DNA of 64,000 nt from Cavenderia fasciculata (taxonomy: Eukaryota; Evosea; Eumycetozoa; Acytosteliales; Cavenderiaceae). The stretch spans positions 387,358 to 451,357 of the forward strand of contig NW_004457713.1 of assembly GCF_000203815.1 (NCBI RefSeq), given 5' to 3'. Made by a program: the position numbers and the translations under genes. Every line of letters starts with the position of its first letter. Positions within the stretch are counted from its first letter, which is position 1. The notes beneath the pieces were generated by a model. It saw only the letters and a program-made list of their open reading frames with translations. It did no database searches and was not told the DNA's origin. Of the stretch, positions 14,405-56,856 are shown in pieces.

Positions 14405-17097
14405 TTATCTTTTCTTATTGTCTAATAATAACTCCTTTAAAAATGGAATATCATCAGATTGTTGATCGGTGTTGTTGTTGTTGTTGTTATTGTTGGTATC
14501 CTCGTCAACAATATAACCATGATGAACAAGATAATTGACAATTGAAAGATTATTTTTAGATATTGATTTTCCCAATTCTTCAAATAGATTTATAGATGCC
14601 AAGTCAAAATAATCTAGATCCAAAATCATTTTGAAACAAGACAAGCTTCCATTTGATAAGCATCGTTTAGCAGTTGATCGAGTCAAAGCACCCACATTTG
14701 ATTCCAAAAATTCATATTCGTAACGACTCTTATTTTGACTCTTTTCTTCTTGATGTTCCAAATCTAAAAAGTATTTCAATATCATTGGACTATCGATGGC
14801 AATAGCTTTAGAGATACTTTTAGCAAATATTTCCAATGATGTTCCGTATTGGGTGTTGTACAAGTGTTTAATAAATGCTAGTTGATTATGAATGATGGCT
14901 GTACTGATGAACATTTGTATAAACTCTCTCAAAGGTGTACACTTGGTCATTAATTTATCAAATGTTTTAATGTCACCTCTTGATGCTAATTCATTCCAAG
15001 TGGTCAAACCGAAATCTAATTGTTTCCCATTATCTCGATAATAACGTTTGATTAATTGGTAAAGTGCTTTGTATTGTCGGTTGAATGATTGGGAGAGGAT
15101 GTTGACAAGAGTTGAAGAAGATGGTTTATATTTTGTTTGTTGGTAGAGCAGCCATTCGACAATATGAATTTGGTTGTTTTCCGTGGAAATCTTTAGTTGT
15201 TGTTGATAGGTTGATTTTATATTTTCGTGGATGTCCGCATTGTAATACTGTTTCATAAGTTGGAAACTCTCTTGACCAAAATGATCGTCGTAATAGTATG
15301 AAATGGCATACCCGTTAAGCTTGATCAATACATCAAGAGAGGTTGCATTGAGACCGGTGCTATCTTTGATATCACACATTAGTGGTAATATTCTCTGTGG
15401 TAATATTATCTCTGATGGACCGGGTAAAGCTAGTACAGCACTTGCAAGATAAAAATGACCATTTCTTTTGATATAGTCTAGTACTTGATCTCGATGGAGC
15501 AATTGAGGATAGTGTTTATGTAGAAACAAGATAACCTTGTCATCACTCTCACGACAATGGCCCACCATTGTATCTCTAAATGGTTTGATATTGTTATCGT
15601 GTAGATACTGCATGATTGCCAATGTTTGATTGCTATCTTGATGTTTTGGATAAAATTTGCTATTCACATCGACCAAACGCAATGAATGTGCCAACTTTAC
15701 ATATTCCAATGTACCATAGTTCATTATGAATGCCCATCCATGTTTTTCACATACCATTTGGACAAACTCTACCTTTTGTTCTTCTTTGACTCGTACTTTA
15801 AGAATGTGAGGTGCATCCAACTCTTTGTTTCCACTGATGGTTTCAACTTTATGATAGAAAAACATATTATATATAAACATATACCACCGAGACTGTTTTG
15901 TTGATAGTTGGGTAAGACTATCGAAATAGATTGCATTACTCTGGTCTGAGCTTTCCTTTTTCTTTTCCACACAATCCATTTCCTCTTCAATCACCATTGT
16001 TGTTGTTGACTCGTCGCAGATTTCAAAATCGATCGATATTAGTTCCAAGACTTGTTTGATAAAGTCAATGTGGTGATCAGTGTCGATGTCTTTAGGTAAA
16101 CCAGTACAAAGTAAGCTTGAATAAACATATTCAACAACGGAAAGATCTGATTCATAGTGACATTGAGCATATTTAATCGTATCTATATCTCTTGTTGGAA
16201 TGAGTAGTTTGTGAAAATAATGGCGAAAGACCTTGTCCATTGTGAAACCATACTGTTTGTTTTTGTTGACAATATCGACAAATAGTCTAGCAAGTTTGAT
16301 TAAATCTGATTGGTTGTGTTTACATAGACCATCATTTAAAGTGAATGGTTCGGTCACTTTAAGTTTGTAATTGATCTTTTCCAATAGATATAATGCCATA
16401 TCTGGATGCATTCCTTGAATTGCAAGTGTAATACATTCATTCATGTCATATGATATTTTAATTGGGACTGTATTATTAACCAATATTTTAAACATCTCTA
16501 TGTTGCCTTTACTTGCTGCCATTTTGAAACAATCTTCATAATTAAACCATTCAGGTTTCTTTTCAAACAGATATTTAAATAACTCCAAGTGTTGTTCATC
16601 TTGACCATTAAATGAACATATATATTCGGTTGCTTTATAATTCCATTTTAAATGATCATCAAATAAATAATCTTTTTTAATTGTAAATGAATTTAAAGAT
16701 GATGAAGAGGATGAAGTATTATTATTGATTATTTGTAAAATCAATTCTCTCTCTTCTCTTTCAATTCTTTCTTTTAATAGATTGATATGACCGTAACAAA
16801 GATACCAACCAATCTTGTTTGGTAGTTGATTAATCTTGTAATATATGTCAGCATTATTCTTTCTCGATACCAATATAATCTTTCTAAACAATACCAAGTT
16901 ACATAATACATTTTTAATGAATCTATCATGTTGTTCTTTATTTGTTTGATTACACTTTTCATCGTCACATCCTTTTATCTATTTAATAAATAAATGTTAG
17001 CAAAGAGTAAACAAAGATGATATGATCATTTAGTTGTCTTGTTTCATCTTACACTTTTGAAAGGGATGATATAAGGGATGTTTTGAATGATCCTCAT
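14405..17097 (-). CDS. ankyrin-like family copy E, intact, 872 aa
   Basis: Exon 1 is 17053-17097 (MRIIQNIPYIIPFKS), donor GTAAGATG; the intron 16979-17052 ends TTAAATAG; exon 2 is 14405-16978 (IKGCDDEKCNQTNKEQHDR...). Joined in phase 0, this gives 872 residues without interruption. It has the same landmarks as copy D: LLKERIEREEREL, MAASKGNIEMFKIL, LSTKQSRW, FKMILDLDYFD, SIVNYLVHHGYIVDED and a terminal PFLKELLLDNKKR. It has only a modest acidic linker instead of the long poly-E run of copy D, and a poly-N tract near the C-terminus. Function unknown; the pattern suggests a helical protein-binding scaffold. Confidence 0.85.
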
Positions 17098-17317
17098 TTT
17101 AATTGTAGTAGCCCTTGTTTGTTTGAATACACTCATCAAACTATCTCAAATAACCTTTATAACAAAAACCACATGATGCAGTCCGCAGAGTCTCTTTGTA
17201 AAAAATTAATTTTATAAATGAATATTTATTTTCTTTGGGGGTTTTGAAAATTTTTGGTCTTCTTTATTTTTAATTATTCTTTTACCAATCGATAGATCTT
17301 CTTTTCTTTATCTATCA

Positions 17318-17830
17318 AATGGTTGATAAAAAAATTTGCGAGAGGTTCACCCTGCTAAAAAGTACTTTCCGTAAAGTCGCCTTTAGCCATGGGCTAACAT
17401 GAGGTCTAGAAAGCATTGTTTGGAAAAACAAATGATATAAACAGAAAGAGCACAAAAAGTTGTATCTATTGGTGATATTGGATCGTCGTTTCAAAGATTA
17501 TTCAAATAAAAAAAATGCTATTCTTCAAAGACTATCTCATAGTACTATTGTGCGGGCCAACCATATAAAACTATGTGCTACATGGATCGATACCTTTTGG
17601 ATCACGATTAATCAAATAAAAAGACAAGCACCAACACAAGAGGTGTAGGTGCCTTGAATCTTCAACATTATATGCACTGGTGTCGGCAGTGTTCAATGCA
17701 TGCCACATCCAGCAACGCTAGACAAGATGGTTAGTATATTTGGAATGGATCAATAATCAAATAATTCAGAAGTGGTCAATCTCAAAACAATTGTGAATGC
17801 TCAAGAGTATTGGTAGCTTAATCTCATATA
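17318..17830 (+). other. unidentified broken coding-like region
   Basis: In the long gap after copy E, several short frames look coding. One starts at an ATG near 17320 (MVDKKICERFTLLKSTFRKV, ending at AFSHGLT). Another at 17445-17648 includes LYLLVILDRRFKDYSNKKNA and LCATWIDTFWITINQIKR. A third at about 17650-17705 reads LNLQHYMHWCRQCSMHATSS. They lie in different frames and could not be joined by credible introns. Probably remains of a gene or transposon exon; no family recognised. Confidence 0.3.
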
Positions 17831-18470
17831 TCGATATCATGGTTATTTATTTGGTACATACTAGTATTATTGTAATTGGCTCTTTTAAAACCCATCAAGG
17901 CTAGTGGTCACATGACAATTTCGCATTCGTTCTATCAAAACCATCCATTCTAAAAGATAATAAATAAGTAATAATTAGTAAACAGTATTTATGACAGTAA
18001 TTTTACAAGATACATATCTTTACAGTTTTTAAAAATGGACCAACTCGTCTCTAATCAATTGATTCTATATTTAAAGTATAATATATATGGCATGAATATG
18101 ATTAGTTGAGGGTTTGATAGTTGTATTGTGATGAATTTACTTAACTTTGTATTCTAATTCAGGTGGGTAGAGTTGATGACCAAACAACCACCTTTGTTGC
18201 TATAATACAAGACTACCAGCTATAGTATGAACCGATTTGTTGACTAGTCTCATTAAACAGATATCTGATAGATTGGAATTGTTAGTTTAGTTTTGAAATT
18301 AATTTATGTTATGAATACATAACTTTAATAGATCGGCGGTTGATTAAGAAGAAGATCAATCGGTTCTAAAAATAGTAAGGATGACCTATGTTAAAAATAT
18401 GTATTAGTAATTGAGTGGTGGTTGTAGTATATATACTACTACTATGTTGAAGTCTACATGATACTTAAAC
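17831..18470. other. AT-rich intergenic stretch, no gene seen
   Basis: Nothing coding-like beyond a short GGTGG/CCACC stem near 18160-18200. Mostly AT-rich sequence with scattered stops in all frames. Confidence 0.5.
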
Positions 18471-18474
18471 TTTA

Positions 18475-18799
18475 TCATTTATGGATAGGTACCATATATG
18501 GATGGATGTATTGTTTGATTAAATATTGAACTATAAAGCTGTAAGGGATAAATAAAAAGAGGAAAAGAAATATGAGTAGAATCAATAGAGCTACCATTAC
18601 TCTTGTCTCAATCACAATGTTTCTCATTCTAAAAAAAAACACCAACAATATATAGATAATAAAATATTAGTATCCAGACCCAAGCCTGGAGCTGCAAGCA
18701 AATGCCCATTGTGAACCAAATGACAAGTTGAACTCCGTTGGCTATACCGTAGAGTAGTCCTTTTGAGTCAAATGAACAATGTACTTGCAGCTCCCAATT
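18475..18799 (-). CDS. putative small membrane protein or exon pair
   Basis: Two adjacent minus-strand frames look real. The downstream one (18475-18627, 50 codons, start MRNIVIETRVMVALL) has one strong membrane helix of about 19 residues (VALLILLIFLFLFLFIPYS) and a short tail ending VPIHK. The upstream one opens right after a good acceptor (TTTCAG at 18800) and runs 56 codons to 18629. It reads WELQVHCSFDSKGLLYGIAN, then a hydrophobic stretch WVWILIFYYLYIVGVFF. The first may be an exon feeding the second, but the only possible donor is weak (GTCTGG). Sequence at 18870-18960 (NSFWLVGGCSSVFQM) may belong to an earlier exon. Function unknown. Confidence 0.35.
18688..18794. repeat. interrupted inverted repeat, 11 + 6 bp
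   Basis: GGAGCTGCAAG (18688-18698) pairs exactly with 18784-18794. After a short internal loop, CATTGT (18707-18712) pairs with 18776-18781. The whole 107-nt block is richer in G+C than its surroundings and overlaps the putative membrane-protein frame. Confidence 0.65.
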
Positions 18800-19099
18800 C
18801 TGAAATGATTTAAAATAGGGGAAAATTGTATATATATAGAGGGGGGGGGAAAGAGGGATAGAGGGTAGAATTCATAAGTTTCCCACGCCGAAGCATGACC
18901 ATTTGGAAGACACTAGAACATCCTCCCACCAACCAAAAGGAGTTGTAGTGTCTTTTTAAATAATAATAATAATATAACCACAAGTGTAATCTATAATTAT
19001 AAAAAAGAGGTTTATTTCTATTGTCTTTAAACAATAGAATAATGGTTAGTGATGTATAATATTTCATAGTAGTGTATAGTCTTACTTTAATTTATATTA

Positions 19100-19766
19100 T
19101 ATATTTATAAAAGATTTTGGTTCTTTGTCAAAGGATCCTTGAATAAAGACAGAGTGATTGTTGGTCTACGTCATGTCCTCTAAAGGCGTCATTCCCATTG
19201 TTGATTGACTGATTGATGATTGTTTAAAATATCTTGATGAATCTAATCGATCGATGGTTATTGTTGTTGGTGTCATGATGAAAATTCTCCCTCCAAAATT
19301 AATTACTTCTCTTCATGACATGATAGTGCTGTGCTGTACTGTGTTCTCGCGCAGTACAAGACAAGTAGTAAATATAAATACATCTAGATTTATGAATTCA
19401 TAACCCATCCTAAAGTTGAATTCATTCATTCATTCATTCGAGACAGACATCCATCAAATGACGATGATGATTGAGATTTAATTTAACTTGTTACCCTATA
19501 CTACTTGTGTTGATGATCAATATTCACATCATCATCATCAACATGATCATCATCATGACTTTTATATCTCTAAGTATTGTATTGTAATTGTATTGTTCTT
19601 ATTCTTATGACTCTGTGATGATCATGATGTTTGTTGGCGTTTGTGAATGCTCCATTTGCAAATTTGAACCCAAAATCTCTTAGTTGCTTACTAGTATGAA
19701 AAGGTGACACTGATGATAATATTCTTTTGAAGAAAGGAATTAGTATACATCAACAACTACTACTAG
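19100..19766. other. intergenic, simple sequence
   Basis: ATC/ATG-type trinucleotide runs (19520-19560) and a CATT repeat (about 19420-19440). No gene seen. Confidence 0.5.
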
Positions 19767-19797
19767 TTAATTTCTTATATGCAACTTATTGTGTAGA

Positions 19798-20031
19798 ATT
19801 ATTATAATAATTCTTTTTTCCATCTTTTGCTTCCTTGTGCATCTTTCTAATGATGTTGATACAACTAAAATCTCTTGGTGACATAAAAACTGTACCATCT
19901 TCGTTGATCTTTTCTCCTTTGGGGTCGAGAGTTGTCTTGATACCTCTTCCATGTTTAGACATGCTCAAACTTCTTAGAACCTCTGCTTGTAGTACTTCGT
20001 CGCCATTTGTATGTCTTCTCAACAGGAACAA
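19798..20031 (-). CDS. small hypothetical protein or terminal exon
   Basis: The downstream part from an ATG at 19962 reads MSKHGRGIKTTLDPKGEKIN and continues through GTVFMSPRDFSCINIIRKMH, ending in a lysine/asparagine tail. This is balanced, coding-like sequence of 58 residues. The open frame extends upstream to about 20031 (HTNGDEVLQAEVLRSLSMSK), but that upstream part crosses an arm of the 29-bp inverted repeat, so the true 5' end is unclear. A downstream start at the MSKHGRG methionine is the safest reading. No family recognised. Confidence 0.45.
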
Positions 20032-20061
20032 CCAGAGGTTCTAAGAAGTTTGAGCATGTCT
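19957..20061. repeat. perfect 29-bp inverted repeat, 47-nt loop
   Basis: Arms 19957-19985 and 20033-20061 are exact reverse complements (29 of 29). One arm begins AGACATGCTCAAACTTC. Read outward, each arm encodes the same peptide, EVLRSLSMS: on the minus strand within the small gene at 19798-20031, and on the plus strand after MSSQQEQP (20011-20064). It also overlaps the 3' end of the small secreted protein gene at 20041-20289. Confidence 0.95.
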
Positions 20062-20289
20062 TAATGAGAATGTTGGTTTAAAACGGTCGCCAATTAATCG
20101 TTGGTAGACTGTTGGAGGTGTCGTTGTTGTTGTTGTTGCTGCTGCTGGTGATGCAGAGATTGTTGTTATTGGTACTAATGCTACTGATACTGATGATGCT
20201 GCTGATGCAGTGATAGTTTGGGCTGCTGTACTCATGATTAATATGCTTAAAATAAAGATAAAAATATATCTATAATATTGATAATTCAT
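20041..20289 (-). CDS. small secreted Ala/Thr-rich protein, 82 aa
   Basis: ATG start MNYQYYRYIFIFILSILIMS forms a signal peptide, probably cleaved near STAAQ. A Ser/Ala/Val/Thr/Pro-rich segment (VALVPITTISASPAA, a run of T and P) follows, then VYQRLIGDRFKPTFSLRHAQTS. The last eight or so residues and the stop codon are encoded by the right arm of the 29-bp inverted repeat, so the original C-terminus may have been replaced. It could be a short secreted peptide or the front of a broken surface-protein gene. Confidence 0.5.
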   Translation of the reverse strand: MNYQYYRYIFIFILSILIMSTAAQTITASAASSVSVALVPITTISASPAAATTTTTTPPTVYQRLIGDRFKPTFSLRHAQTS

Positions 20290-20624
20290 TATAAAGATAT
20301 TATCAATTTAATTAAATAATTAATTGTTTGTTTCAATTGATTCTACACTTTTTTTTTTTTTTTTTTTAAATTTTTTTTTCTCATGAGATAGTGCGATCTT
20401 TATGCGTGCCATAGGTGACTGACCTGATACATTGCGAGGTTTGAACATTTGTTTCAAAACAACAACAGCAAATAGCCCCTCTCTCTCATTAATAAATGGA
20501 TCCTATCAAAAAGAAGAAACAACAATAGAATCATACCCTGATTTGGTATCATACACCCCCCCCTCTCCCTCCTCCTCTTCTCTTACATTTTAGATCTTGG
20601 TTCATATAATGAGCCTAATCCGCA

Positions 20625-20832
20625 CCCCCATCCCCCTCCTTATCCGCCTCACTCATATAGTGAATCAACACGCCCATAATCTGACGGGTTACATCAAAGA
20701 ATGATCGTGCTGTGGCTCACCTAGGCATCATATCCAACCATGACTACCACCCCCTATCCTCCTCCTTATCCCCCTCACTCATATGTTGAATCATAAATGA
20801 TCGTGCTGCTGTGGCTCACCTAGGCATCATGA
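20625..20832. repeat. imperfect tandem duplication of about 100 bp
   Basis: CCTTATCC(G/C)CCTCACTCATAT is followed by (G/T)TGAATCA, then TGATCGTGCTG and GTGGCTCACCTAGGCATCAT. The series appears at about 20638-20732 and again at about 20764-20830. It lies in a C-rich stretch (20540-20780) upstream of the Fanzor gene. No coding potential seen in 20290-21160. Confidence 0.75.
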
Positions 20833-20940
20833 ATGCCCCCATTAAACGGTGGTGATGACACAGTTCGGGTATTAAGAAACCACCATACGATTATGATATC
20901 ATTGGGACAACCCCATCTGTATATGTATCACCCCTCACTT

Positions 20941-20959
20941 TTTGTTGATAATCAACAAA
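20941..20959. repeat. 19-bp palindrome upstream of the Fanzor gene
   Basis: TTTGTTGAT-A-ATCAACAAA, 9-bp arms around one base, about 205 bp before the proposed start codon. A possible protein-binding site or chance. Confidence 0.45.
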
Positions 20960-21163
20960 GACAAGAAAACATTTGTTTAAAATAAAATATTATTCATCAA
21001 GCTCCAATGTTCTCTATTTAAAGTGTTCTTTTTCTCATCACATCATTATTCATTTTATCTATCTTTTCTTCAATTCATTATCTTTCTGCTATATTGTATT
21101 ACCTTTATATATTTTTTATATAGGAAGCTTCTAATTGAGGTTCACTATCGCACAGTGGTCATC

Positions 21164-24100
21164 ATGAATGGCCCACTTCCATCCGCAACAGAGACAAGAA
21201 CAACTCAATACCCTCTCGATCGTCTCATGGGTAAGAAGTGGAATAACGAACAAAACTTGTTTGTGACACATCTCGGCCAATATGCAAGATACTATCACTC
21301 TGTTAAGAGGTTAGTAGGCCAATTTTTTTTAATATTTGTATACGACTTTAATAACAGTAAGATATCATCAACCTTTTTTTTTTTTTTTGAACATGAATCA
21401 TTCAGATAAGTTCATGAACTAATTGATCGATTTCATGTATTTTACTATTTTTAGTGTTTAGTTTGTCCCGACAAGAACTCGAAAAAGTAATACCAAAGTA
21501 TTACGACATGAGTGTTCTTTCAAAGAACAAAACAAATGAATTATATGAAAAAATGGAAAATCGGTTGACTTTGCCGATTCGATGGGATTCTCTAATTGTG
21601 GAGGCCATCATCTCAAAGGTGATGGACATAGACACACGCAAAAGCAGTAATAGTCCAAGAGATTATGTATGTATAACAGTCTGTGACAGTTATGATGTGT
21701 AATAATAAATTAATTTTTATTTTATTCTTTGTTTACTCTTTACAGAATTCTGCACAAGATGTCCAAGCAAAAGAGAAAATCGTCAACAAAATGCTATCGA
21801 GAACATTTGCCAAACTCAAGGTAGACGAGATGGTTGCAAAATATCAAATCCTCCGATATGCACTCCTTGACCCAGATCTGAATCCAATTGGCTGTTGCCA
21901 CTCTTATAAAACCGCCTTTGCCAACTCCATTTGCAATAGTTACTCGGCCGAGGTGGCCGAGACCTGCAAAAGGATGGTGGAGAGTGCTTTAGACCGTCAA
22001 GATGACCGAAACATATTCCACCACGAGTCCAAGTTGGTGTCGGATCTTCTGGAGGATATACTTGCCAAAATAGATGATGGTGATATCGGTGAAGGGTACC
22101 AAGCTCTCAAACTAATATTTTCATCTCAACCATTAAAAGGTATGTCATTGATATTAACACCATCACAGGTTTTTTTTAAATATCTTCTTGCGTCGGTTCA
22201 TGTAACTCTATCTCTCATTTTGTTTATCTTTTGCTCATACACGTCAAAAGGGGTCGATGACCGCTACTGAGAGGATGGTGGGCAGTTTGCGGAGTGTCGA
22301 TCAGATTTTTTTTTTTAATATTTATTTTCATTTTTTTTTTTCATCTCGAACAACTCACAGAAACCAAATTTAGAGAATGTATATTAAACTATTAAATAAC
22401 ATCTCACACTCAACACAACATTATCAATAGATAGAATACAGCGAGTATTGTTTATAGTTACACTTTTAGTGTAAGAACCCACACATCACTATCATTACTC
22501 CTCTTTTACACCATTTCTTTTTGATTATCTTTTGTTTTCATTGGTTTACCAATCAATGCACCACCCATCTCTTTCCTTTTAACTACTCATTGTTGGCCAA
22601 GTTCATCTTTACATATCATTGACCTCTTGTGTTCACTCATAAATTATATAATCCTTTTTGATCCAAATCAAGTACCAATCTACCACTCTTTATCGCTCTG
22701 CATCCTTTTTGTTGTTCGTTTGATCCACTCTCCTATCCGACAAACTTTCTTTACCACTTAACTTTCCATCAGATACTGCAATCAATCACTACCATTGCTC
22801 CTCTTTTACCCTTTCTTGTTTTGATTATATTTGTTTTTATTATCGAGATGCACCACCCATCTAACCACTCGCCTCATTGTTGGTCCCAGTCTTTCCATCA
22901 GATCGATAATGCAAAACATTACAATCATTGCTTTTACACCATTTCTTTTTTGTTTTCATTATCCAATCAACGCATCACCTATCTCTTTTGCCTCATTGTG
23001 GAGAGAGAGATAGAATTTATAGAGTATAATTGTAATACAGCGCGTATTAATTATTGCAGAGATTAGAGTGATCTTTGATACCTCCATTGATAGCAAGAAG
23101 CTCTCTCTATGCAGTGACAGGCCTGTCAAACCTTTTTTTTTTTTTAATTTTAAACCTCTCTAACATTTATTACATTTATCATTATAGATCATAATTTGGA
23201 ATGCGAAAAGAAAAGGTCAAAATTAAAAGAGGAAAGAGAGGCCAAGCAAAATCAAGAGCCAGCCATTCCCAAGGAAAAAAAAAAGAAGAAACAGTTTTTG
23301 GGTGACAAAAGGCCTGAAAACTTTGATGAAATCAATTTTGATGGATCTGTTTATTCAATATCAAATTTGGCCACAGATTTAGAGATTGATAGCAAAAATG
23401 TAAAGAAATTAAAGGTTGAAGAACATATATCTGGTGATTATTTACAATCTGAACTCTCATCAAAGTTGGAAGCGTTGATCCAATCATCAACATCAATAAG
23501 TGCCTGGAGTGGGTTAAATACCCTCCAATTGAATAGATTGAAAATGCTAAATTTGGAAAATATAATTAATCCGTAACTATTATTATTATTATATCTTTTG
23601 TTATTTTTTATTATTTTCATTATAATTAACTAATCAAATGCTTTTTTTGTAATCTTATTTTTTTTTCTATAGAGAGGACAATTCAATCGATTTTTCAAAG
23701 TTGACAAAAGATCAATATCCATCTTTAATGGATTTTTGTGAATCAAATGGATACAAGTTTCCAAAAGGATATGACCCTACAGGATTGAAATCCCTCATGA
23801 CGTCCGATTTGGAGACGATAAAAACTACTCCTTTCGCATTGAATAGCTTTGCACCACAAGCAAAGTATGTATAAAACAATTGACCAATATCTTTTTTTTA
23901 TATTTTTAAAACTAATCCTCTTTTTTATCTATAGATTCAACAGTACTTTTATCCCATTCTCGATAGAGTTGTTTGTCAGTATAATCGTCAACTCTGGAAT
24001 AGATATGTCCCTTGGTTTGACCGACAAACACAAAATATTAAGGTATATTTCAAAAATATTACCTAATTTGGAAAAAGAAATTGGTCATCCATTGGAAAGT

Positions 24101-27100
24101 GGCTATCCATTGGATAGATTTAAGTTTTTCGACAAGGAAATTGAGATCCTCAAAGCTTCGCACTTGGCTTCTTTTCCTTCATCGTCAGATGTAACAATAT
24201 CACCATCCTCTTCGTCTGATGTAACAACATCACCATCCTCTTTGTCTGATGTAACAATATCACCATCCTCTTCGTCTGATACAACAACATCACCATCCTC
24301 TTCGTCTGATACAACTACATCTCCATCCCCATCATCAAAAAAAAAAAGAGGTAGACCTCGTAGTGAGATTGTGGATATAAAGTTAGAAAAATTCCCTGAT
24401 TTTAAAGATTTTAAATTGGAGGATCTTAATCGACAATTGGAACTTAGAGATATCGAATCCCCAAACATTGATACACGAGTCCAAGAAGAGGAAAATATTA
24501 AAAGATTGAAATTGGTTTTATGGCAAGACATGGTAAAACGCTTGCAAATAGATTTTAAAGAAGACTTTGACTACAGCAAATCCAGTCAAGTTAGCATTTT
24601 AAAATGGTTATCTTTACCTACTAGCACTATTAAAATCGAATATGATTGGTACTGTTGTTCATTGCCAACACTGAAAGGAACTCTCAAGAAACTATTCAAT
24701 GACAGCCCAAAGGTGAAGAGAAATGAGCCAAGGAAATGGATGCCAAAGTCTCTTGCTTCAACAAAAAAATCGTTTCTTTTTCGTTACTATACGATTGGAT
24801 TTGTTGGAAAATCAGTCCTCTGCGATTATTTGCAATCACCGTATGTAAAAGACAACCCATTCGATTTCAACGGGTCAACAAAAACAATTCACCCCAACTT
24901 TAATGATTACGAAAGAGACAATATTGGTTACATTTATAACCAAAAAATGTCGGTCCTAATCAATCAAAGGGCGATGATGGTGACAACCAACGTTCCCAGC
25001 CATATCTGGTTCCAAACAAAAAGTAAATGTCATTGTTTTAAAGCATTATTATCTTTTACGACCCATTCATTTTACTAATATTTAATTTTAATCTTTATAT
25101 AGGTGCAAATGAAAAAGTAGTTTCTGATGTGCAAATATCCATGAATAGCCGTCTCTTGCCATACCATTTGAAAAAGAGACAAAAATTAGAAGAATCTTTT
25201 CCAGAGCAAAGTTTGGTCTCTCAAAAAAACGGTCAAGATGGCACACCCATGGATGATTCCGATGACGACGACGATGATGATGATGAATCATGGAAATGTA
25301 AACAAGTAGAAGAAATGGAAAAGAACCATTCATATTCATACAACCATCCCCACTATGCTTGTTTTGTGGCAAAACAAGTTGGGTTGAAACCAAACATTCC
25401 CAAAGTCAAGGATAGAGATATTATCTGTGCCAATTGTTTGTCATCCCACTCACTTAAAGATTTGCCTATGGTGTGCGAACAATGTGATGCGACCATTCCT
25501 ATTCTATCGGAACATGAAAAAAGATTGGATTTATGTGGTGACCTGATGGATCTGTACTCGGTTGATATTCAACTAAAAAGGAATGCATTTGAAAAAATGC
25601 CACCCTTTGATTCAAAGGATGATCTATTCCCTCCACCAGTACCATTAATTGCCGAAATCAATCATCGACTCGTCAAATTTGACCAACCTGAATCACCCCA
25701 TGTGGAGATTTTTCTACACGAGGCTCTCAACACCACCTCGATAGCACTCAACAGTAACAGGTCAGGAATTGCACCCTCCATGCGGAACCTATTCAATCTT
25801 ATTAAAACTACATCCGATCCCTCGATGCAATTTAGAATTCGTGATGCATATCCCTTTGTCCACGACTCGTCTACTGGCGGATTTGAAAATGAAATCAAAC
25901 ATGAAATCATGGTGAAGGAATTAATGAACCATTTTTCAATGACAACGGCCAAGCTCATTATTGTTTGTGGACAATTCCCTTGCAAGGCAGCCAAAGAGGC
26001 TTTTAATGCCAATCCTTTGGATTACGAAATGGTTGACTATAGTCAAGAATCTTATCACACCATTTTAGATAAAGCCAAAGGCACAACCGAGGACAAAGAG
26101 GTGGATGTAAGTAGGATAGTTCCTAAAAGGCTCATTGCTATCGCTCCGCATCCATCAGTCATGTTTGCGTTGCACATAACAGCAGCCTATATTTTGATTG
26201 CTCATGATATCTACAAAATGGCTCCAAAGGTATCTCAATTTGACCCAGTTCAAACATTTAAATCGAATTCCCCCTCGTCTGCCTCGTCCTCCTTCTCCTC
26301 CACGTCCTTATCATCCACGTCATCTTCATCATCTGCCTCGTCTTCCTCGTCTGCCTTGCCCCCGTCCTCCTCGTCCTCCTCCACGTCCTTATCATCCACG
26401 TCATCCTCATCATCTGCCTCGTCTTCCTCGTCGTCCTTATCATCCACCTCATCTTCATCATCCTCCTCTTCGTCCTCCAATCAAAAGACCACCAAACGCC
26501 CAAATCTAAGTAACAAAACAAAAGATTTTCCTTCACTTAAACAATGGACGTTGGAACATCTAGTTGAAGAGGCCACATCCCGCAAAATCGACGTAGAGAA
26601 TATCAAAGAAGATCGTCTTCAAGTTGAATGTGTTTTGTTGAAATCGGTCCTTGGGTTTCAAATATGGTCAGAACAAAAAATTGAACAGTTTGATCTAGAG
26701 GAATCAAAATCGAAAAAAGATATACTGGCCTATGCGAGAGAAAAAAAAATCCCTTTGACAGACTATTGGTTCTTCATGACGTTGGAAACCCTCAAAAAAG
26801 CCGTGCAAAGGTGTCTCGCTTCCACCTCGTCCCCATCTCCGTCCTCCTACTTGCCCACCTCTTCCTCACCCTTGACCGATATCTCACTCCCCTCTTCCCC
26901 ATCCTTGACCGATGCCCCACCCACTTCATCCTCATCCGATACCTCAACTCCACCCTCTTCCACCGATACCTCATCCTTGACCGATACCTCAACCACCCCG
27001 TCCTCATCCGATACCCCACCCTCTTCCACCGATACCTCATCCTTGACCTATACCTCACTCCCCTCACACTCATTCTCCTACTCCTCCTACTCTAAACCTT

Positions 27101-28968
27101 TTGTAAAAAATGAAAAGTGCGTTTACAAAGATGAAGAGAAACATATAAGAGCAAAGAGAGATTTTTATCACTCTGGAATGTGTAGAAGGCGCCGAAGCAA
27201 ATGGAAAGTTATGAGGGAAAACAACCGTGGCAATTATCTTTATATCGGAATTGATCCTGGAAGGTCAAAATGCACGATTGTAGACTCTATGAATCGTGCT
27301 CGAGTGGTTTCAGTGGCATCTTATTACAACCTCATGGGCACTGACCGTCTTCTGGCAAGACAACAAAACTACAAAAAGAACCCGGTCCTGTCCAAATTTG
27401 AAAGTGGATTGCCAACCTATAATACCTTTGGTAAGTGTTATTTTAAATATTCATTGTCTATACCACCTATATATTATAATATTAATATTTATAAACTAAC
27501 TTTTTTTTTAATTCCTAGATACTTTATTCAATGTAGAATCTGTATTGAGACGAATAGAGTATGAAAGAATTACCCATAGGGATCAATGTCGTCTTTATTC
27601 CCATGTAGTGACGTCCTATACGTTTCAGACCATGGACAAGAACAGGAACATTGACAAGAAGCGCGCCCAATATGCCTATGCAAAGAGCTTTGTACCACCA
27701 ACAACAATCCCGAAAAATAGAATAGTGATTTGTATGTTTTTTTTATTTCTTCAAACCATTTATTATTATTTGTTATTAATCTTCTTTCTTTTTATAGATA
27801 TTGGAGGGTCTGATTTTTTCCGTGGATCCCGAGGTGGTGGTAGAACTGGTTGTACATCAAAGACACTACTCAGACTGTTTTTGAATATGGGTTACAAGGC
27901 ACGTCTTGTCAATGAATTTAATACCTCCAAAGTATGTGTGTTTTAATAATTGAATTTTTAGATCAACCCTCGAAATGGCCATTCATTAATATTTTTTTTT
28001 CCAAGATTCATAATGCATGTGCCTCCAAAATTCATTCTACCAACAACAACAAGTTCCTAGAAAAAGCTAAACACCAAAAGGTTAAAAATGTGTTGCCAGA
28101 ATCTTTTGAAAAGACCCATGTTGTTGGTGCACCCATATCCTCCACGTTTTCAGACAATGGTGTTCGTTGGCAAGGAAAGGATTCCAAGTTATGTGATGGT
28201 TGCAAATTGACTGATTACAATTGTCAATGCTCCAAGGCTCAATTGGCGGACAAAGAGAATGATTCAACTCTGAAAGTGTCTCAATTGGCAGATGATATGA
28301 ATGAAACTCTAAAAGTATTCATATCACTTGAAAATACTTCACCTTCTCCAACTATGCTATTGGAATCCCTTTTCTCTTTAAGCAAAAAGACTGTCAAGGA
28401 GTTGATAGAGTTTTGCAATCTAAACTCTATCAAATACAATCAACAAGAAGAGCCAACCAAAGGGAAAAACAAAAGAGGTTCTCACAAGGATAGTAAGGGT
28501 GGTGCTACCAACAGCAAAAAGGACCAACTTATCAACGCTATCATCAAGTTTAATTTTGAAAAACAAAAAAGGGATGCTAGCAAAAATAAGAAAAAGAGGT
28601 CAAAATCGTCATCAACTACTAATGATCGTTGTAAGGACCAAGATCAAAGCAATAGTCAAAAGGATGGGAACAAGTCTACAAGCAACTCTGTTTCGACCCA
28701 CGATTATGGTTTTGGTAAGTCTCTTTGTGATAGTCAGATCAAAGATCTCTGGAAGTCAATGAACCCAAATGCGACAGAAATGCCATTTAAAACTAAATGG
28801 CAATGGCTATATTGTCCAGTTTGTGATCATTTCTTCAACAGAGACACGAGCGCTGCAAAGAATATTCTCTTATTGGGAATCTTACACCAAACCGCAGATT
28901 ACAGGCCATGGATTTATCGTCCTTTACCTGCCGATATCGTGCATATTGGGAGGGTAGACACGACCTAG
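21164..28968 (+). CDS. Fanzor (eukaryotic TnpB-like) nuclease, 2,015 aa, ten exons
   Basis: Proposed exons: 21164-21309, 21462-21666, 21746-22139, 23188-23572, 23673-23864, 23935-25022, 25103-27430, 27519-27731, 27798-27931, 28006-28968. All introns are GT-AG and phases agree at every junction (6,048 nt, no internal stop). RuvC-I is YIGIDPGRSKCTIV (D1521). The usual RuvC-II glutamate place is IVIYIGGSDF, with no acid at the canonical spot. An alternative glutamate follows about 40 residues later in RLVNEFNTSK (E1690). RuvC-III is NRDTSAAKNIL (D1975). The zinc ribbon is H1697-x2-C1700 with C1965-x2-C1968. These are Fanzor hallmarks; known Fanzors are RNA-guided DNA nucleases. N-terminal to this lie about 1,500 residues with a C4 ribbon (C912, C915, C928, C931), SAP-like helices and Ser-rich linkers. 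The start is the first ATG after an AT-rich leader (MNGPLPSATETRT); an upstream noncoding exon ending at 21120 is possible. Confidence 0.85.
22140..23187 (+). other. outsized intron 3 of the Fanzor gene
   Basis: 1,048 nt, against 66-152 nt for the other eight introns. It begins GTATGT and ends ATTATAG, and joins K-G|AT-H in frame. It contains T runs, a G-rich coding-like patch near 22255-22305 and pyrimidine-rich degenerate repeats. Confidence 0.65.
22435..23048. repeat. repeat-bounded block inside intron 3
   Basis: AATACAGCG(A/C)GTATT occurs at 22435-22449 and 23034-23048 in the same orientation. Between them are about three degenerate copies of a unit of roughly 125 bp, starting near 22490, 22764 and 22889. 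Shared pieces include CTTTCCATCAGAT (last two), CTTTTACACCATTTCTTTTT (first and third) and ATGCACCACCCATCT (first two). It could be a small inserted element or an expanded minisatellite. Confidence 0.55.
24177..24330. repeat. coding 30-bp minisatellite in Fanzor exon 6
   Basis: About five copies of a 30-bp unit encode SPSSSSDVTT-like ten-residue repeats (about residues 520-575 of the Fanzor frame). Third-position differences between copies show that they are not brand new. Confidence 0.8.
26265..26480. repeat. Ser-coding low-complexity tract in Fanzor exon 7
   Basis: TCC/TCG/TCA-rich repeats encode a Ser-rich linker at about residues 1192-1264. A second Ser/Thr/Pro tract lies at 26815-27090 (about residues 1375-1468) with units like TDTSSLTDTS. 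Opposite-strand acidic reading frames here are shadows. Confidence 0.8.
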
Positions 28969-29040
28969 TTAACCTTAACAGGGCCTTCCTGCATAAATAT
29001 GAAAGTCCCCCCCTCAGCTGTAAGTTATTAGATAGAAAAT
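28969..29040 (+). ncRNA. possible guide-RNA scaffold region after the Fanzor stop
   Basis: Immediately past the stop codon is a compact patch, unusually rich in G and C for an intergenic stretch (28978-29022: ACAGGGCCTTCCTGCATAAA, then CCCCCCCTCAGCTG). The sequence then drops to T-rich 3' UTR. In Fanzor and TnpB loci the omega RNA usually overlaps or follows the 3' end of the nuclease gene. The placement fits, but no conserved fold was verified; only a short CAGG/CCTG stem is evident. Confidence 0.25.
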
Positions 29041-29135
29041 ATAATGTTGATCTCAATTTACTGATTTTCCTCTTTTTTTTCTGTTCTTTGTCTTTTTTTT
29101 TACTTTGTCTGTTTTTTTTTCTTTCCTCAATTCAA

Positions 29136-29166
29136 AATAAAAGTTCAAATCATATAAGTCAATAAA
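29136..29166 (+). terminator. polyadenylation signals of the Fanzor transcript
   Basis: AATAAA at 29136-29141 and again at 29161-29166, after the T-rich 3' UTR that follows the Fanzor stop. This is typical of dictyostelid mRNA ends. Confidence 0.5.
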
Positions 29167-29237
29167 TTTTATTGTCATCTTTAATACTATGATTGACAGG
29201 ACAGATAATATTAATAGTGTTTAAAATAGATTGAACT

Positions 29238-29275
29238 TGACTCGATGAAATCATCAACCATACCAATTATTTTAT
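29238..29275 (+). pseudogene. short relic of an LRR-family C-terminus
   Basis: Reads LDEIINHTNYFI in one frame. All LRR paralogues at 45-64 kb carry the near-identical R-L-D-E-(I/V)-I-N-H-T-N-V-R-Y-L-S motif near their C-termini. Flanks give no further similarity. Confidence 0.45.
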
Positions 29276-29307
29276 CAAGAAGAAGATTTTTATCAAAATC
29301 AAAGTGA

Positions 29308-30814
29308 TCAAAGTGTAGTGTAGAATGATAAATTAAGTTTCTTGAATTTTATAAAGTATTTATTTACTTTTTTTCTTTGCAATTCCGTTAAAAATGGAAA
29401 ATGATGTGAGAGTTGAATGTAATTCTTGTTGTTGTAGTTAACAAGAATATGATCATGATGAACAAGATAGCTGATAATTGGTAGATTGAGATATTGTGAT
29501 TTTTCTTTTATTACCATTAGCATAAATCCTTTCGATTGGAGGATTGATGAATCAAAATAATCTAGATCCAATATCATTTTGAACCAAGATAATATTCCAT
29601 CTATTAAACTCACCTTGTCGAGATACCTACCACAATTTATCACGGTGCGACGGGTAAATGGGTTGAATCCATTGTCGTGTAGAAATGTCATGATTGCCTT
29701 GTTTGGTTGATATCTTTATGTTTTGGATGAAATGTCGCATCGGGGTCGACCAAACCCAATGAATGTGCCACCTTTACATACTCTAATGTAATCTACCTTC
29801 ACTCATGATGGGTCCCCATCCAAACATTTCAGTAAACTCTTCTTTTCCTTTGACACGTGCTTTGAGAATATTATCTCGTATTTTGGAGATATCGTCGTTG
29901 AGCGCCTGTCAAGTATGTCACGATCGACCGGGGGTAATAGCGAATACATACTAAACTTAAACAAAAGTCAACGTGATTGTTTGGTTGATAGTTGAGCAAG
30001 TCGACCGAAATGATTCGCTTCTTCATCATAATACTGATAATACATCTTCAATCGAGTAAAGTGTCCATTAGCGTATTTGATCGACTCTATATCTTGAGAT
30101 GACATGAGGAGATTAATGAAATAATTTTTAAAAAGTTTGTCCATGGTGATTCCATCATTCTTGTTATTGTTGACAATATCAACGAATAATCTTGCAAGTT
30201 TGATTAAATCGGATTGGCTGTGTTTAGATAAACTACCATTTATCGAGAATGGTATGATTGATTTGTATCTGTGATACCTGTTGACATTGAATTTGTAATT
30301 ATTCATTTCCAATAAATACACTGCCATGTCTGGATGCATTCCTTGAATTGCAGCTGTAATACATTCATATGTATCATATATTGGTTTGATAGGAATTGTA
30401 TGATCAGCCAATATTTTAAACATCTCTATGTTGCCTTTACTTGCTGCCATTTTGAAACATCCAGAATGATATTTAAATAATTCCATGTGTTGTTTATCTT
30501 GACCATTAAATGAACATATATCTTCGGTTGTTTCATAATCCCATTTTAAATGATGTTCAAATAAATAATGAATTTAAATGAGAAGATGAAGAGGATGAAT
30601 TATTATTATTATTAATAAATTGATGTAATTCTTTTTCTTCTCTTTCAATTCTTTCTTTTAATTGATTGATATGACCACCTCTGACATCCTTTTATCTGTT
30701 TATAATATTAGAGAATGAAAGTAGTTTTGTTAGACTCAATAGAATGCTTGTATTTACATTTGGGAATGGGATATTTCTAGCATTGTTTTTAGTGATTACA
30801 CTGGTTCGTAACAT
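29308..30814 (-). pseudogene. ankyrin-like family copy F, decayed
   Basis: Exon 1 survives (start 30814, MLRTSVITKNNARNIPFPN, then GTAAAT). The start of exon 2 is damaged: a deletion joins the CDD block almost directly to the LLKERIEREE block. Open pieces follow at 29968-30486 (MAASKGNIEMFKIL through LSTKQSRW) and 29308-29691 (from TFLHDNGFNPF to HFPFLTEL). The first piece has lost the acidic linker, and the second jumps from NCGRYLDKV straight to FKMILDLDYFD, a loss of some 250 residues. It lies between the Fanzor gene and the divergent LRR gene. Confidence 0.8.
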
Positions 30815-31124: not shown

Positions 31125-32819
31125 ATGATAGAGAGATTGCAAAGTATAATCATTCTACAGATAATCAAAGAGATTGATAATGTAGATTTGATATGTCTGC
31201 TGATGACATGTAAGAAGATGTTTTATCATTATATTAGACGCGCCTTAAAGTTTAAACATATGGAGTACAAGATAAACTTTAACCATACACTCTTTTATCA
31301 GTTCAATTTACAATCATTTGTTGATATCACAAAGAATTCAGTGTCTAATACACTCATCATAAGAGACCCTTTTTTGGCTTACAAAGGAAAATATACATGG
31401 TTTTTAGATTACTTGTTACAACTAGGTGATCGACAGATTACAACTACTGCATATAACTATAATTGTGAAGTGAAGGAAATCCCAGAATCGACAGATACGC
31501 TCTATGTCTATCAATCAAAACGAAATCCATTATTGCAACGTAAATTGGTTGTACCGAGCAATATCAAGACTCTAGATATCTATATACGTGTCGCCAAATT
31601 TGACGATTTAACATTTCCAATTGGTCTAGAGACACTCTACTTTAGGTCTTCACCATCGATAATCAACTTGGCCCAACCACACTTTACCAATCTCACCACT
31701 CTATCTATATCTGGTCAGATATTCGAAGGCGGCGCATGCCCTCTGCCACCCAACTTGACCAATCTAAGTATGTCACACTCAAACTTTGACAGTCACCTCT
31801 TTGATCGGTTGACAAGTCTAGTACATGTGGATCTACACCTACTGTCAGCAAGAGATAGCTCACGGACACTAGATCTATCAAAACAAGTGTGTCTAGAATC
31901 TTTTATCCTTAAAGACTGTGTCAATAATCAATCTCTTGGTGATATACACATTCATCTGTCTCGGACGTCGCTCACTCGTCTCTCGCTCCCACCTCGACTC
32001 ATTTCCAAACAATCGACCAACCTATTTCCATCAACACTCAAACACTTGACTGTCTCTTTGGAGACCCTAACCGATTTCAAAGTCACGTCTTGTTGTTTGG
32101 ACACTTTATGTCTATCGGCCTGTAGTCGTTCTATTACCTCTGATCTTATTCCAAACAGTGTCAAAACACTAAAGATCGTATTCACAAATATAAATTTGGG
32201 TTGGTCATTATCGTCATCAACAAACATTACAAGTTTGGATGTTACCTATTTAGGTAATATTTGTGGAATTATCTCTTTACTGCCTCCTAATTTGGTTCAC
32301 TTTTCACTCGGTTGTGAAAGACAACTCCCTTCCTACTTTCTAGTTCTTCCAGTGCTTTATCCAACATCTCTTGAAACACTCGATTATTCCAGAGTGTTTG
32401 GGCGCTATGACAAAATAGTTGTACCAACCACCATTTCAACGCTATCTTTGAACCTTTGTTCGATGCCAATTGGAACAATATTTGATCAATTAAGATTTGG
32501 ATCACTGCCACCAAGCATCAAAAAATTAGAGATAATGGTTTCATTGGCAGACACTAGAATTCGATTGGATGAAATCATCAACAAAACCAATGTTCAAGAA
32601 CTAACATTGTCATATGAAAACCTTCCTCTCCAAAATCATATATCTATTAGAAGATTGGATGATCATAATAGGAATGTATTGGTTGTAGATAATAGAACTT
32701 TGAATGGTGGTATCATAGAAACCATCGACATTGATACCAATCCAATCTATTTACATTTACAATGTTTTAAATATCATCAAAAATTATGTTGGAGTAATAA
32801 AATTGGTCAAGTTGATTAA
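31125..32819 (+). CDS. divergent F-box-like/LRR protein, 564 aa
   Basis: Single exon. The N-terminus MIERLQSIIILQIIKEIDNV continues DLICLLMTCKKMFYHYIRRA, the same F-box-like start as the array at 45-64 kb (LLLQII..IEDNVDIICLLLTCKKLY). Leucine-rich segments follow: LKTLDIYIRV, LETLYFRSS, LPPNLTNLSMSHSNF, LTRLSLPPRL, STLKHLTVSLETL. The end retains RLDEIINKTNVQELTLSYEN and RRLDDHNRNVLVVDNRTLNGG. It is shorter and clearly more diverged than the clustered copies. Likely an adaptor of the SCF type with a substrate-binding LRR/FNIP-like surface; the target is unknown. The GATA repeat abuts its start. Confidence 0.8.
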   Translation: MIERLQSIIILQIIKEIDNVDLICLLMTCKKMFYHYIRRALKFKHMEYKINFNHTLFYQFNLQSFVDITKNSVSNTLIIRDPFLAYKGKYTWFLDYLLQLGDRQITTTAYNYNCEVKEIPESTDTLYVYQSKRNPLLQRKLVVPSNIKTLDIYIRVAKFDDLTFPIGLETLYFRSSPSIINLAQPHFTNLTTLSISGQIFEGGACPLPPNLTNLSMSHSNFDSHLFDRLTSLVHVDLHLLSARDSSRTLDLSKQVCLESFILKDCVNNQSLGDIHIHLSRTSLTRLSLPPRLISKQSTNLFPSTLKHLTVSLETLTDFKVTSCCLDTLCLSACSRSITSDLIPNSVKTLKIVFTNINLGWSLSSSTNITSLDVTYLGNICGIISLLPPNLVHFSLGCERQLPSYFLVLPVLYPTSLETLDYSRVFGRYDKIVVPTTISTLSLNLCSMPIGTIFDQLRFGSLPPSIKKLEIMVSLADTRIRLDEIINKTNVQELTLSYENLPLQNHISIRRLDDHNRNVLVVDNRTLNGGIIETIDIDTNPIYLHLQCFKYHQKLCWSNKIGQVD

Positions 32820-32925: not shown

Positions 32926-35680
32926 TTATAGTGATTTTTGAGAACTTTGAAAAAATTCCTCTAAAAATGGAATATTTTTAGAGAGAAGTTCAGTGTTTTT
33001 ATCATCAACAATATAGCCATGATAGACAAGATAATTGGCAATTGGTAGATTTTGATATTGTAATACGTATTGAATTTGTTCTTTTTTACAGATTATTGAG
33101 CGAATCAAGGGATAATAATCATCCATATCATTTTGAAACCAGACAACTTATGAAATCTTATACAAATGTTCAATGCCGTTCCAATAATACCAGTGTCTTG
33201 ATTCAAATATTGTGGGTCGAACTGAAATTTGGTTAGACTCTTTTCTTGTTGAGCCAAATCTAAAAAGTATTTCAATATCTTAAGACTATCGTAAAATATA
33301 GCATTGTTGATACAATAGCCATCGATTTTAAATTGTGGGTATTGAGTGTAGAGGTGTTGAATAAATGCTAGTTGATTATGAATAATGGCTTCATTAATGA
33401 CTGATCCATATCCATAATCCTCCAAAGGTTTATGTTTGGCCATGAATCGATCAAACATTTTAATGTCACCTCTTGATCCAATTGCATTCCAAGTTGACTG
33501 GTTGAATTGTAATAATTGTCCTTTGATATTCTCTCGATAATAACGTTTAATCAATTTGTAAAGTTGTTTGTATTGTCTATCATATGATGTGGTGAGGATG
33601 GAGATTAGAGTGTCAATGTTTGGTTTGCATTTTGTTTGTATGAATAGTAAAAATTCAACAATTTCAATTTGATTGTTGTTTGTTGAAATCACCAACTGTT
33701 CTTGAATTGTTCCTCTAAGAGGTGAAGGTCTCGTACTATTATTATAATACTGTTGCAAGAGTTGAAACCCCTCTTGACCAACACGATCATCGTAATTATA
33801 AAACAAGCAGTATCCACAAAGCTTCATCATTGCATCGAGCGAGGTTGCATTGATACCCCTGCTATCCTTGATGTCAAAGCGTTTTTGCCGACGACCTCGT
33901 TTTCCAAGTGGTGGCACCACATCAGGAACGACGAGTATACTTGTAAGATAATAATGACCATATTTCTTGATATAGTTGAGAACGTCATCTTGTTGGACAA
34001 GTTGAGGATAATGTTGATGTAGGAACATGATCACCTTGTCATCACTCTTGCCACAATGTTTTACAGTTTCTACGGTAAATGGGCTGATTCCATTATTGTG
34101 TAGATATTGCATGATTCCCAATGTTTGATTAATATCTTTATGTTTTGGTTTAAATGTACTTTTGGGACTGACCAAACCCAGAGAGTGTGCCAACTTTACA
34201 TGCTCCAATCGACCATTGTTCATGATAAATCCCCATCCAAACAATTTACGTAACAATTTCATAAATTCTGTTTGTCGGTCCTCTTTTACACGTACTTTGA
34301 GAATAAGAGGTATTTCTGACCAAAATTGAGCAGGTGCTTCTTGAGGTAGTTCTCCTTTTAAACACATACCAAACATAAACATTGTCCAACGTGATTGTTT
34401 GGTTGATAGTTGCGTAAGACTATTGAAATAATAGTTGATGTTGTCATTTTCCTCCTCTTCCTCCTCTTTCTCTTCCTCTTCCTCCTCCTCCTCCAGAACC
34501 AAACTAGAACTATCCAATTCCTCGTCAATGACAAACATTTCAATTAGATTGTTTGTCATACCAACCAATCGCTCATATTTATCTGGATCGGTGTTTAGTT
34601 TTAATACTTGTTTGATAAATTCTAGATGGTGATCTGGGTCAATGCCTTGAGGTAAACCAGTAAGAAGGAAATCTGGATACAATCCTTTAAAAACAAAAGC
34701 ATCGAAATGATAGTGGTCATGTCCATAATTAACCGACTCTATATCTCTTGTTGGCAAGAGTAGATTGTAGAAATACTCTTTAAAAAACTCGTGCATTTCG
34801 ATAGATTCTTTGTTATTGTTGGCTATATCTACGAATAATCTTGCAAGTTTGATTAAATCTGATTGACTGTGTTTAAATAGACCATACTTTTTATTGAATG
34901 TTGTGGTTACTTTGAATTTGAAATGATTCATTTCCAATAAATACCTTGCCATGTCTGGATGCAGTCCTTCAATTGCAACTTGAATACATTCATTCATGTC
35001 ATATTGTATTTTAATTGGGACAGAATTATCAACCAATATTTTAAACATATCTATATTACCTTTACTTGCTGCCATCTTGAAACATCCAGAATGATTAAAC
35101 CATTCAGGTTTCTTTTCAAACAAATATTTAAATAACACCAAGTGTTGTTCATCTTGACCATCATATGAACATATTTCTTCAGTTACTTCATAATTCCATT
35201 TTAAATGAAGTTCAAATAAATAATCTTTTTTAATCGTAAATGAATTTAATTGAGAAGATAAAGTAGAAGATGAAGAGGATAAAGTAGTATTATTATTATT
35301 ATTATTATTAATATTTTTAAATTGATGTAATTCTTTTTCTTCTCTTTCAATTCTTTCTTTTAATAGATTGATATGACCGTAACAAAGATACCAGCCAATC
35401 TTGTTTGGTAATTGATTAATCTTGTAATATTTCTCTACACCATCATTCTTTCTCAATACTGATATAATATTTCTAAATATTACCAAATTACATAATACAC
35501 TTTTAATGACTCTATCATGTTGTTCTTTATTTGTTTGATTACACCTGCTATCATCACATCCTTTAATCTGTGTTATTTTCAATAAAATAAATGTTAACAT
35601 ATCACCATCATCATTAATTGTCTACTACTTACACTTTTGAATGGGATGATTCTAGCATTGTTTTTAACAATCCTTGACAT
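32926..35680 (-). pseudogene. ankyrin-like family copy G, one late frameshift
   Basis: Exon 1 is 35633-35680 (MSRIVKNNARIIPFKS), intron 35569-35632 (GTAAGT...ACACAG), and exon 2 begins at 35568 with IKGCDDSRCNQTNKEQHDR. The frame is open for some 820 codons with all landmarks (LLKERIEREEKEL, poly-N, MAASKGNIDMFKIL, a Glu-rich linker, LSTKQSRW, KHGHYYLTS-type block). It slips in FKMI, near 33110-33126: the frame ends soon after, while the neighbouring frame carries MDDYYPLIRS, LPIANYLVYHGYI and PFLEEFF to 32926. About 60 residues are displaced. It may be a nearly intact gene, a very young pseudogene, or an assembly error. Confidence 0.8.

Positions 35681-56801: not shown

Positions 56802-56856
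<55 letters not shown>

Follow-up and report, generated by a model that had tools for sequence, protein, structure and literature searches.

The DNA studied here is a stretch of 64,000 nucleotides of the Cavenderia fasciculata genome, hereafter the window (C10:387358-451357), and the genome searches reported below were made within the corresponding assembly of 31.0 megabases in 21 contigs. The window contains a chain of ten exons (21164-28968) that ends in a RuvC core resembling those of the Fanzors, the RNA-guided nucleases of eukaryotes. This locus raises the question of whether so long a chain can be a single gene, what kind of protein it would encode and what carries it in this genome. From the sequence comparisons described here, it is likely a very long and diverged Fanzor1-type nuclease gene, and its carrier a DNA transposon of the Sola2-Fanzor type that was active recently.

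A probable nuclease gene carried by a multicopy transposon

Exon 10 has 34 matches in the genome, and 11 of them, the window included, are 99-100% identical over at least 314 of 320 residues. The flanks of the ten other near-identical copies were taken, and the similarity among copies stops at GAATATTTATTTTC on the left and at AAAATAAAAGTTC on the right, each flanked by AAAT. All ten have this right end; this left end was found in nine of them and not in the C14a copy. In the window, the element and its parts are placed as follows:

17220..29146, + strand: whole mobile element, 11,927 base pairs (bp); aligned stretches 93-99% identical in ten other copies
17216..17219, + strand: left AAAT, probable target-site duplication, present before GAATATTTATTTTC at 17 of 17 full-pattern left ends
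17220..17232, + strand: left terminal inverted repeat GAATATTTATTTT, 11 of 13 positions matching the reverse complement of 29134-29146
17220..21163, + strand: 5' region, with large insertion and deletion differences between copies
28969..29146, + strand: 3' untranslated region, candidate location of a guide-RNA scaffold, with a possible short hairpin and an AAATATG block in three families
29134..29146, + strand: right terminal inverted repeat AAAATAAAAGTTC, end of the element
29147..29150, + strand: right AAAT, AAAT being present at 24 of 25 right ends read

The nuclease gene is the sole gene detected in these 11.9 kilobases (kb); positions 17220-20980 hold no open reading frame (ORF) of at least 100 codons on either strand, and no transposase was seen in the element. 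Since the pairwise differences in exons 4-10 amount to 0.08-0.71% among ten copies, their spread is recent. Our data indicate that the gene is the cargo of a multicopy and probably recently active DNA transposon of the Sola2-Fanzor type, a carrier that the original prediction had overlooked.

Several variants were met among the copies. Close to the left end, the window copy (at 17254/17255) and the C3 copy lack a block of some 54 bp which the other eight left ends among the fetched copies contain, and a second variable block lies at 18087-19140. The C2 copy and the locus L053 look internally deleted, but either could owe this to an assembly gap, since exactly 100 N stand in each; at L053 (C3:23450-24040) the two family ends are 405 bases apart with the 100 N between them, so that it is either a short gene-less copy or an assembly gap. 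The idea of gene-less 'ghost' copies was dropped, such runs being as in assembly gaps. A second, quite different Fanzor family is present in six copies (L002-L007) with near-identical 3' parts, ending in GAAATAAAGGCTC and then AAAT.

Exon structure and the case for a single gene

Re-splicing the region reproduced exactly the predicted ten exons. The introns are GT-AG, the phases agree, and the chain of 2,015 codons closes with a stop at 28966-28968; the start codon at 21164 is tentative, the frame being open further upstream. Eight of the nine introns measure 66-152 bp and intron 3 measures 1,048 bp. The exons are listed with their homologues in a diverged family of the same genome (family B, which consists of one element on C18 and a near-identical one on C4):

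21164..21309, + strand: exon 1 of the spliced chain; homologue C18:722552-722701
21462..21666, + strand: exon 2 of the spliced chain; homologue C18:722829-723041 (27%)
21746..22139, + strand: exon 3 of the spliced chain; homologue C18:723142-723519
22140..23187, + strand: intron 3, exceeding the 89-bp gap of family B by about 0.95 kb
23188..23572, + strand: exon 4; homologue C18:723609-723992; first in-frame ATG at chain codon 368
23673..23864, + strand: exon 5; weak homologue within C18:724075-724329 (33%), one stop in the match
23935..25022, + strand: exon 6; homologue C18:724349-725338; Ser/Thr-rich run, KKKRGRPR at residue 576
25103..27430, + strand: exon 7; CxxC pair at residues 912-931, Ser-rich linkers, RuvC-I D1521 in GIDPGRS
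27519..27731, + strand: exon 8; 72% identity in family B
27798..27931, + strand: exon 9; catalytic E1690 in LVNEFNTSK
28006..28968, + strand: exon 10; TNB zinc module with CDGC (1758) and CPVC (1965), D1975 in NRDTSAAKNI, stop

The genome searches used exons 1-3, exons 4-6 and the first half of exon 7. In family B the last of these matches C18:725530-726519, and the sequence from C18:726459 onward supplies the remainder of exon 7 and exons 8-10. All ten exons have matches there, collinear and on one strand, at 27-72% amino-acid identity, the weakest being exon 2 (27%) and exon 5 (33%), whose match runs across an intron and a stop. Introns 7-9, which belong to the readable part, have the same positions and phases. 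Because the ten exons are collinear in family B, the chain is not a product of chance.

The near-identical copies were aligned as the window and nine of the ten others, C2 being left out (most exons lacking, 100 N). The splice sites of introns 4-9 are kept in 10 of 10 aligned copies and those of introns 1-3 are complete in nine, the C1 copy being without exons 1-3. An in-phase alternative acceptor at 28188/28189 (TCCAAG before TTATGTGATGG) would give the canonical zinc-finger spacing E-x6-CxxC. It was rejected and the original exon 9-10 junction kept, because comparison of family B with the window family (family A) shows coding evolution in the segment that would be lost, and because family B and C18b have no AG directly before the first CxxC.

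The length of intron 3 and the separate occurrence of exons 1-3 at another locus led us to suspect two genes chained together, in which exons 1-3 would be the relic of a Sola2 transposase and a shorter Fanzor would start within intron 3. At C3:1827102-1828074, exons 1-3 lie in a fragment that has a different Fanzor family about 6 kb downstream of it, and neither exon 7 nor exon 10 of the window family was found nearby. Moreover, exon 3 is shifted by +4 in three of the ten aligned copies and a fourth has no exons 1-3, and Sola2 transposase genes that are mostly deleted were described for the elements DFa-1 and DFa-3 by Bao and Jurka (PMC3627910). However, the match of exon 3 in family B ends at the junction residue and that of exon 4 starts at it, with 89 bp between them and all exons collinear. 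Similarity of the C3 fragment to the window family extends into the first part of intron 3 and breaks off inside that intron; the fragment is therefore a 5' piece of the window family. Intron 3 includes stretches of DNA that many other loci also have. In exon 4, the first in-frame ATG comes only nine codons before the exon ends. Given family B and the end of the C3 fragment within intron 3, the division of exons 1-3 from the rest was set aside as very unlikely. A single conserved gene is, as judged from these alignments, the best and most likely reading of the exon chain; the original prediction, which had named a division into two genes as the objection to its single gene, is sustained on this point by the 89-bp interval of family B.

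Part of intron 3 was observed elsewhere in the genome: within window positions 22255-23120, the stretch at about 22485-22709 resembles clustered DNA on C7, C9, C11, C12, C14, C21 and others, and is like a dispersed or satellite repeat.

Protein motifs and relationship to TnpB and Fanzor

D1521, E1690 and D1975, the three catalytic acids of the original prediction, are present at these residues, in GIDPGRS, LVNEFNTSK and FFNRDTSAAKNI, respectively. The first belongs to a RuvC-I motif D1521-P-G, which is kept in family B and reads DPN in a further family (family d). The second is the alternative RuvC-II glutamate placed just before [TS][TS] (VNEFNTSK), and its NE pair is invariant across all four aligned families. 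Two CxxC knuckles, CDGC at 1758 and CPVC at 1965, are followed by the NRD that ends with D1975, the zinc module being split by inserts (203 residues between the knuckles). Both the intact catalytic acids and the great length that had been claimed for this protein are supported.

Exon 10 matches family d at an expectation value (E) of 3.9e-7. The TNB profile of Pfam (PF07282) was matched by four of the four aligned members, at E up to 0.1 and at best 7.8e-8; the best member would be family d, because the matches to PF07282 in the genome include the six copies of family d and L001, a relative in the same genome that reaches 26.4 bits. Homology of the window protein to the TnpB/Fanzor superfamily is thus supported at the sequence level, by way of family d, as is the claim of a Fanzor/TnpB-type RuvC core. 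The wording 'Fanzor-specific motifs' used for these residues was too strong: the position of the glutamate just before [TS][TS] is that of Fanzors, but the distance from it to the first CxxC is 68 residues and not 7, the TDG motif is missing and the TNB match stays below its cut-off. Since spacing, cut-off and TDG all depart from the pattern, we consider the protein to be probably a diverged Fanzor1-type and not a canonical Fanzor1. The original prediction had proposed profile searches of the C-terminus as a check; in ours, PF07282 stayed below its cut-off and the PDB yielded weak matches to chains named LaTranC.

In Pfam searches over the protein, pieces of the N-terminal part included, no family rose above its cut-off, and the sole informative weak match was the TNB zinc module at the C-terminus. 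About 1,200 N-terminal residues carry no recognised domain and are matched in family B; KKKRGRPR at residue 576 is AT-hook-like (AT_hook, E 0.079, below the cut-off). The PDB search gave no match for residues 865-1187 and, with the single sequence, two chance-level matches. The NCBIfam search gave no relevant match. Viral relatives were also sought: 22 pattern matches occurred in viral contigs and none was confirmed.

Selection between families and drift among copies

Families A and B were compared over 700 aligned codons of exons 7-10, where the proteins are 57% identical and third codon positions are the least conserved. The non-synonymous rate (dN) is 0.35, the synonymous rate (dS) 1.17 and dN/dS approximately 0.30, with the catalytic acids and zinc cysteines conserved; by segment, the ratio goes from 0.15 (residues 1920-2015) up to 1.23 (1757-1800, 29 codons). 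Among the near-identical copies, exons 4-10 outside masked repeats show 13 synonymous and 37 non-synonymous changes, a near-neutral ratio of 0.77, and one further change, to a stop, in a codon with two changes; exons 1-3 show 0 synonymous and 2 non-synonymous changes. The frame is uninterrupted, over 2,015-2,022 codons, in six of the ten aligned copies. In the other four it is damaged, by the +4 shift in exon 3 of C14a, C14b and C17 (C14b with an extra length change in exon 7) and by the broken C1 copy.

These figures could be taken to mean that the nuclease is decaying, its copies being neutral hitch-hikers of a protein that no longer works, as the ratio of 0.77 and the broken frames in four copies would suggest. 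Neutral drift of copies after insertion is, however, expected whatever the state of the source gene, and the ratio of about 0.30 between families, the retained acids and cysteines and the six open frames argue against decay. We regard it as unlikely. The idea of a gene under selection, put forward originally, holds between the families and fails among the recent copies.

Asymmetric insertion sites

Seventeen left ends, from the ten fetched copies (window included) and seven of 20 further loci, show the full pattern, and at all 17 AAAT precedes the GAAT tip (AAATT in the C1 copy). The 12 bp before this AAAT are 91% A+T on average, with a minimum of 83%, against 70% on that side of AAAT sites in 140 kb of flanking DNA, and not one of 100,000 sets of 17 drawn at random was as high as 91%. 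On the other side, the 12 bp after the right AAAT are 63% A+T at 14 sites of the window family, a value a little under background (4,393 sets in 100,000 drawn at random were as low), so that no enrichment is seen there; column averages of the right flanks that held two false internal matches (C18a, C4) were not used. This asymmetry of the insertion sites is a new finding. Among right ends, 23 of 23 from several families are followed by AAAT, as is L001, and with C18b, which has ATTT, the count is 24 of 25. C18b has ATTT on both sides and its A/T-rich DNA on the right, an opposite orientation that argues for a real duplication of the four flanking bases.

The A/T-rich side may be a target motif of the nuclease, a prediction that we make tentatively, by analogy with SpuFz1. 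The rival view, which concerns this step only, is that the A/T tract is a target preference of the transposase and has no link with the nuclease; it is a serious contender, and we hold the two to be about as likely. The same A/T-rich left flank is found at L054 and L055, which have a short left-end stretch only, and at L053, which is interrupted by an assembly gap; left ends with a GAGTG tip (L056, L057, L061, L064) likewise follow AAAT, and an AWWT duplication is reported for the DFa elements (PMC3627910). Against the transposase view, a cut-and-paste enzyme acting on similar ends has no obvious reason to leave AAAT at 24 of 25 right ends, the element of the nuclease SpuFz1 offers a precedent for constant bases on the same side, and the short copies could be targeted in trans.

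The 13 further loci outside the set of 17 comprise the four GAGTG tips, four GAGC tips and one diverged GAAT tip (L067), together with L066, where AAAT coincides with the edge of the sequence taken, and three loci (L058, L060 and L065) that have no such tip. A related element (L022, C18:1307101-1310433, and L059) is inserted opposite to the AAAT motif, with ATTT on both sides and A/T-rich DNA on the right.

Points that weigh against the proposed reading

Several results do not fit easily with a Fanzor1-type gene in a transposon whose insertions are oriented. In the protein, 67 residues separate E1690 from the CxxC at 1758 where six are expected of a Fanzor, and the segment between them evolves as coding sequence (A-B ratio 0.46 over 58 codons). 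No TDG motif, as in the WED domain of Fanzor1, occurs in the 2,015 residues, the two PF07282 scores are 11.5 and 14.4 of the 26.3 bits of the gathering cut-off, and the PDB profile search with the core matched weakly chains named LaTranC (E 0.0088 and 0.01). Constraint is uneven, the ratio of 1.23 at 1757-1800 coming from 29 codons and the segment 1278-1400 being saturated, and exons 1-6 of family B are known solely as match coordinates. At the ends, GAGC left tips follow ATTT in the other orientation (L048, L059, L062, L063), a diverged GAAT tip, L067, outside the set of 17, follows CTGT, and the asymmetry itself could stem from the transposase. No empty site occurs among 21 genome matches, 20 of which are the flanks themselves and the last of which (C17:107569) covers a single right flank, so that the target duplication and the excision product are putative. 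Finally, positions 28930-29150 fold no better than shuffled sequences (z-score +1.24).

The fixed orientation holds for the GAAT type and not for all related elements. Tip sequence and orientation seem to be linked, GAGC occurring after ATTT, and GAAT and GAGTG after AAAT.

The 3' region and a possible mechanism

The 3' consensus of three families contains five pairs and no double changes, a possible short hairpin without excess stability, and an Rfam scan of 16900-29400 gave no match. In the mechanism that we propose, the right end of the transposon would be transcribed into a guide RNA whose guide part would be the right-hand flank of each copy. The target would be the empty site, either after excision or on an uninserted allele, composed of the A/T tract, AAAT and the right flank; the enzyme would bind and cut this site, and repair would copy the element back. 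At the occupied right junction (GTTC-AAAT-right flank) the motif would be spoiled, because the element ends with GTTC (GYTC in related families), and the enzyme would spare its own element. Since no transposase is seen in the element, we assume that a Sola2-type transposase mobilises it in trans. The long N-terminal part could perhaps be DNA-binding.

A bolder proposal is that the N-terminal 1,200 or so residues make a composite enzyme, which would bind A/T-rich DNA, place the transposon and later guard the site by RNA-guided cutting. It draws on AT-hook- and SAP-like stretches, both below the Pfam cut-offs, and appears to us very improbable, as does its corollary that the enzyme would help choose, or even perform, insertion at sites made of an A/T tract and AAAT.

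Eleven young and near-identical copies with defined ends, in what looks like the genome of a harmless soil amoeba, together with a concrete prediction of target motif and self-avoidance, make 'cut the empty site, copy back' directly testable, and the domain set of the long N-terminus calls for an explanation.

Surroundings of the element

Ten other long ORFs of the window were scanned with Pfam: five have ankyrin repeats, two have FNIP repeats, which are typical of dictyostelids, and three have no match. The ankyrin-repeat ORFs lie on both sides of the element (33105-43415 and 8510-16978) and those with FNIP repeats are located at 31125-32819 and 47292-49457. Within 49541-60466 there are five ORFs, each about 650-670 codons long, of which two are on the + strand and the other three on the - strand; with length as the sole criterion they could be a local gene family, and the two that were scanned have no Pfam match. 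No tRNA genes were found within the window.

Comparison with known systems

Elements of this type have been known since 2013, when Bao and Jurka described three related Sola2-Fanzor1 families, DFa-1, 2 and 3, in Dictyostelium fasciculatum; their paper (PMC3627910) gives them inverted repeats of 12-13 bp, AWWT duplications and a 5' region common to several families. The window element has a Fanzor1-type gene, terminal inverted repeats of 13 bp, 11 of them identical, AAAT on both sides (ATTT on both sides for C18b, with no empty site found) and a shared 5' region, and we infer that the eleven near-identical copies are very probably among the published DFa elements. In contrast, the Sola2 transposase of 888 amino acids reported there for DFa-2 is not seen as an ORF in the window element, and the text accessible to us mentions no asymmetric A/T tract and gives neither a protein length nor an exon number for DFa.

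The element Spu-1 with SpuFz1 (Saito et al. 2023, PMC10432273) also has a Fanzor1 gene, inverted repeats and many copies. Its copies likewise share constant bases on the left, where CA stands just outside the element; its putative duplication is TA and the target motif of the enzyme is CATA. Here the corresponding features are AAAT and the A/T tract, and the 2,015 codons in ten exons differ from the 633 amino acids in one ORF given for SpuFz1 in PMC3627910. The Fanzor1 guide RNAs studied in insect viruses are predicted to have the duplication within their scaffold and to run about 15 nucleotides beyond it. The Fanzor1 of SfAV (Yoon et al. 2023, PMC10711439) likewise belongs to a non-autonomous transposon, encoding only Fanzor1 between inverted repeats with short duplications; it differs in its viral host and in its guide RNA, which is demonstrated there and predicted here. 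Taken together, the departures of the window element from the published pattern are its length, its approximately 1,200 domain-less N-terminal residues and its zinc module split by inserts.

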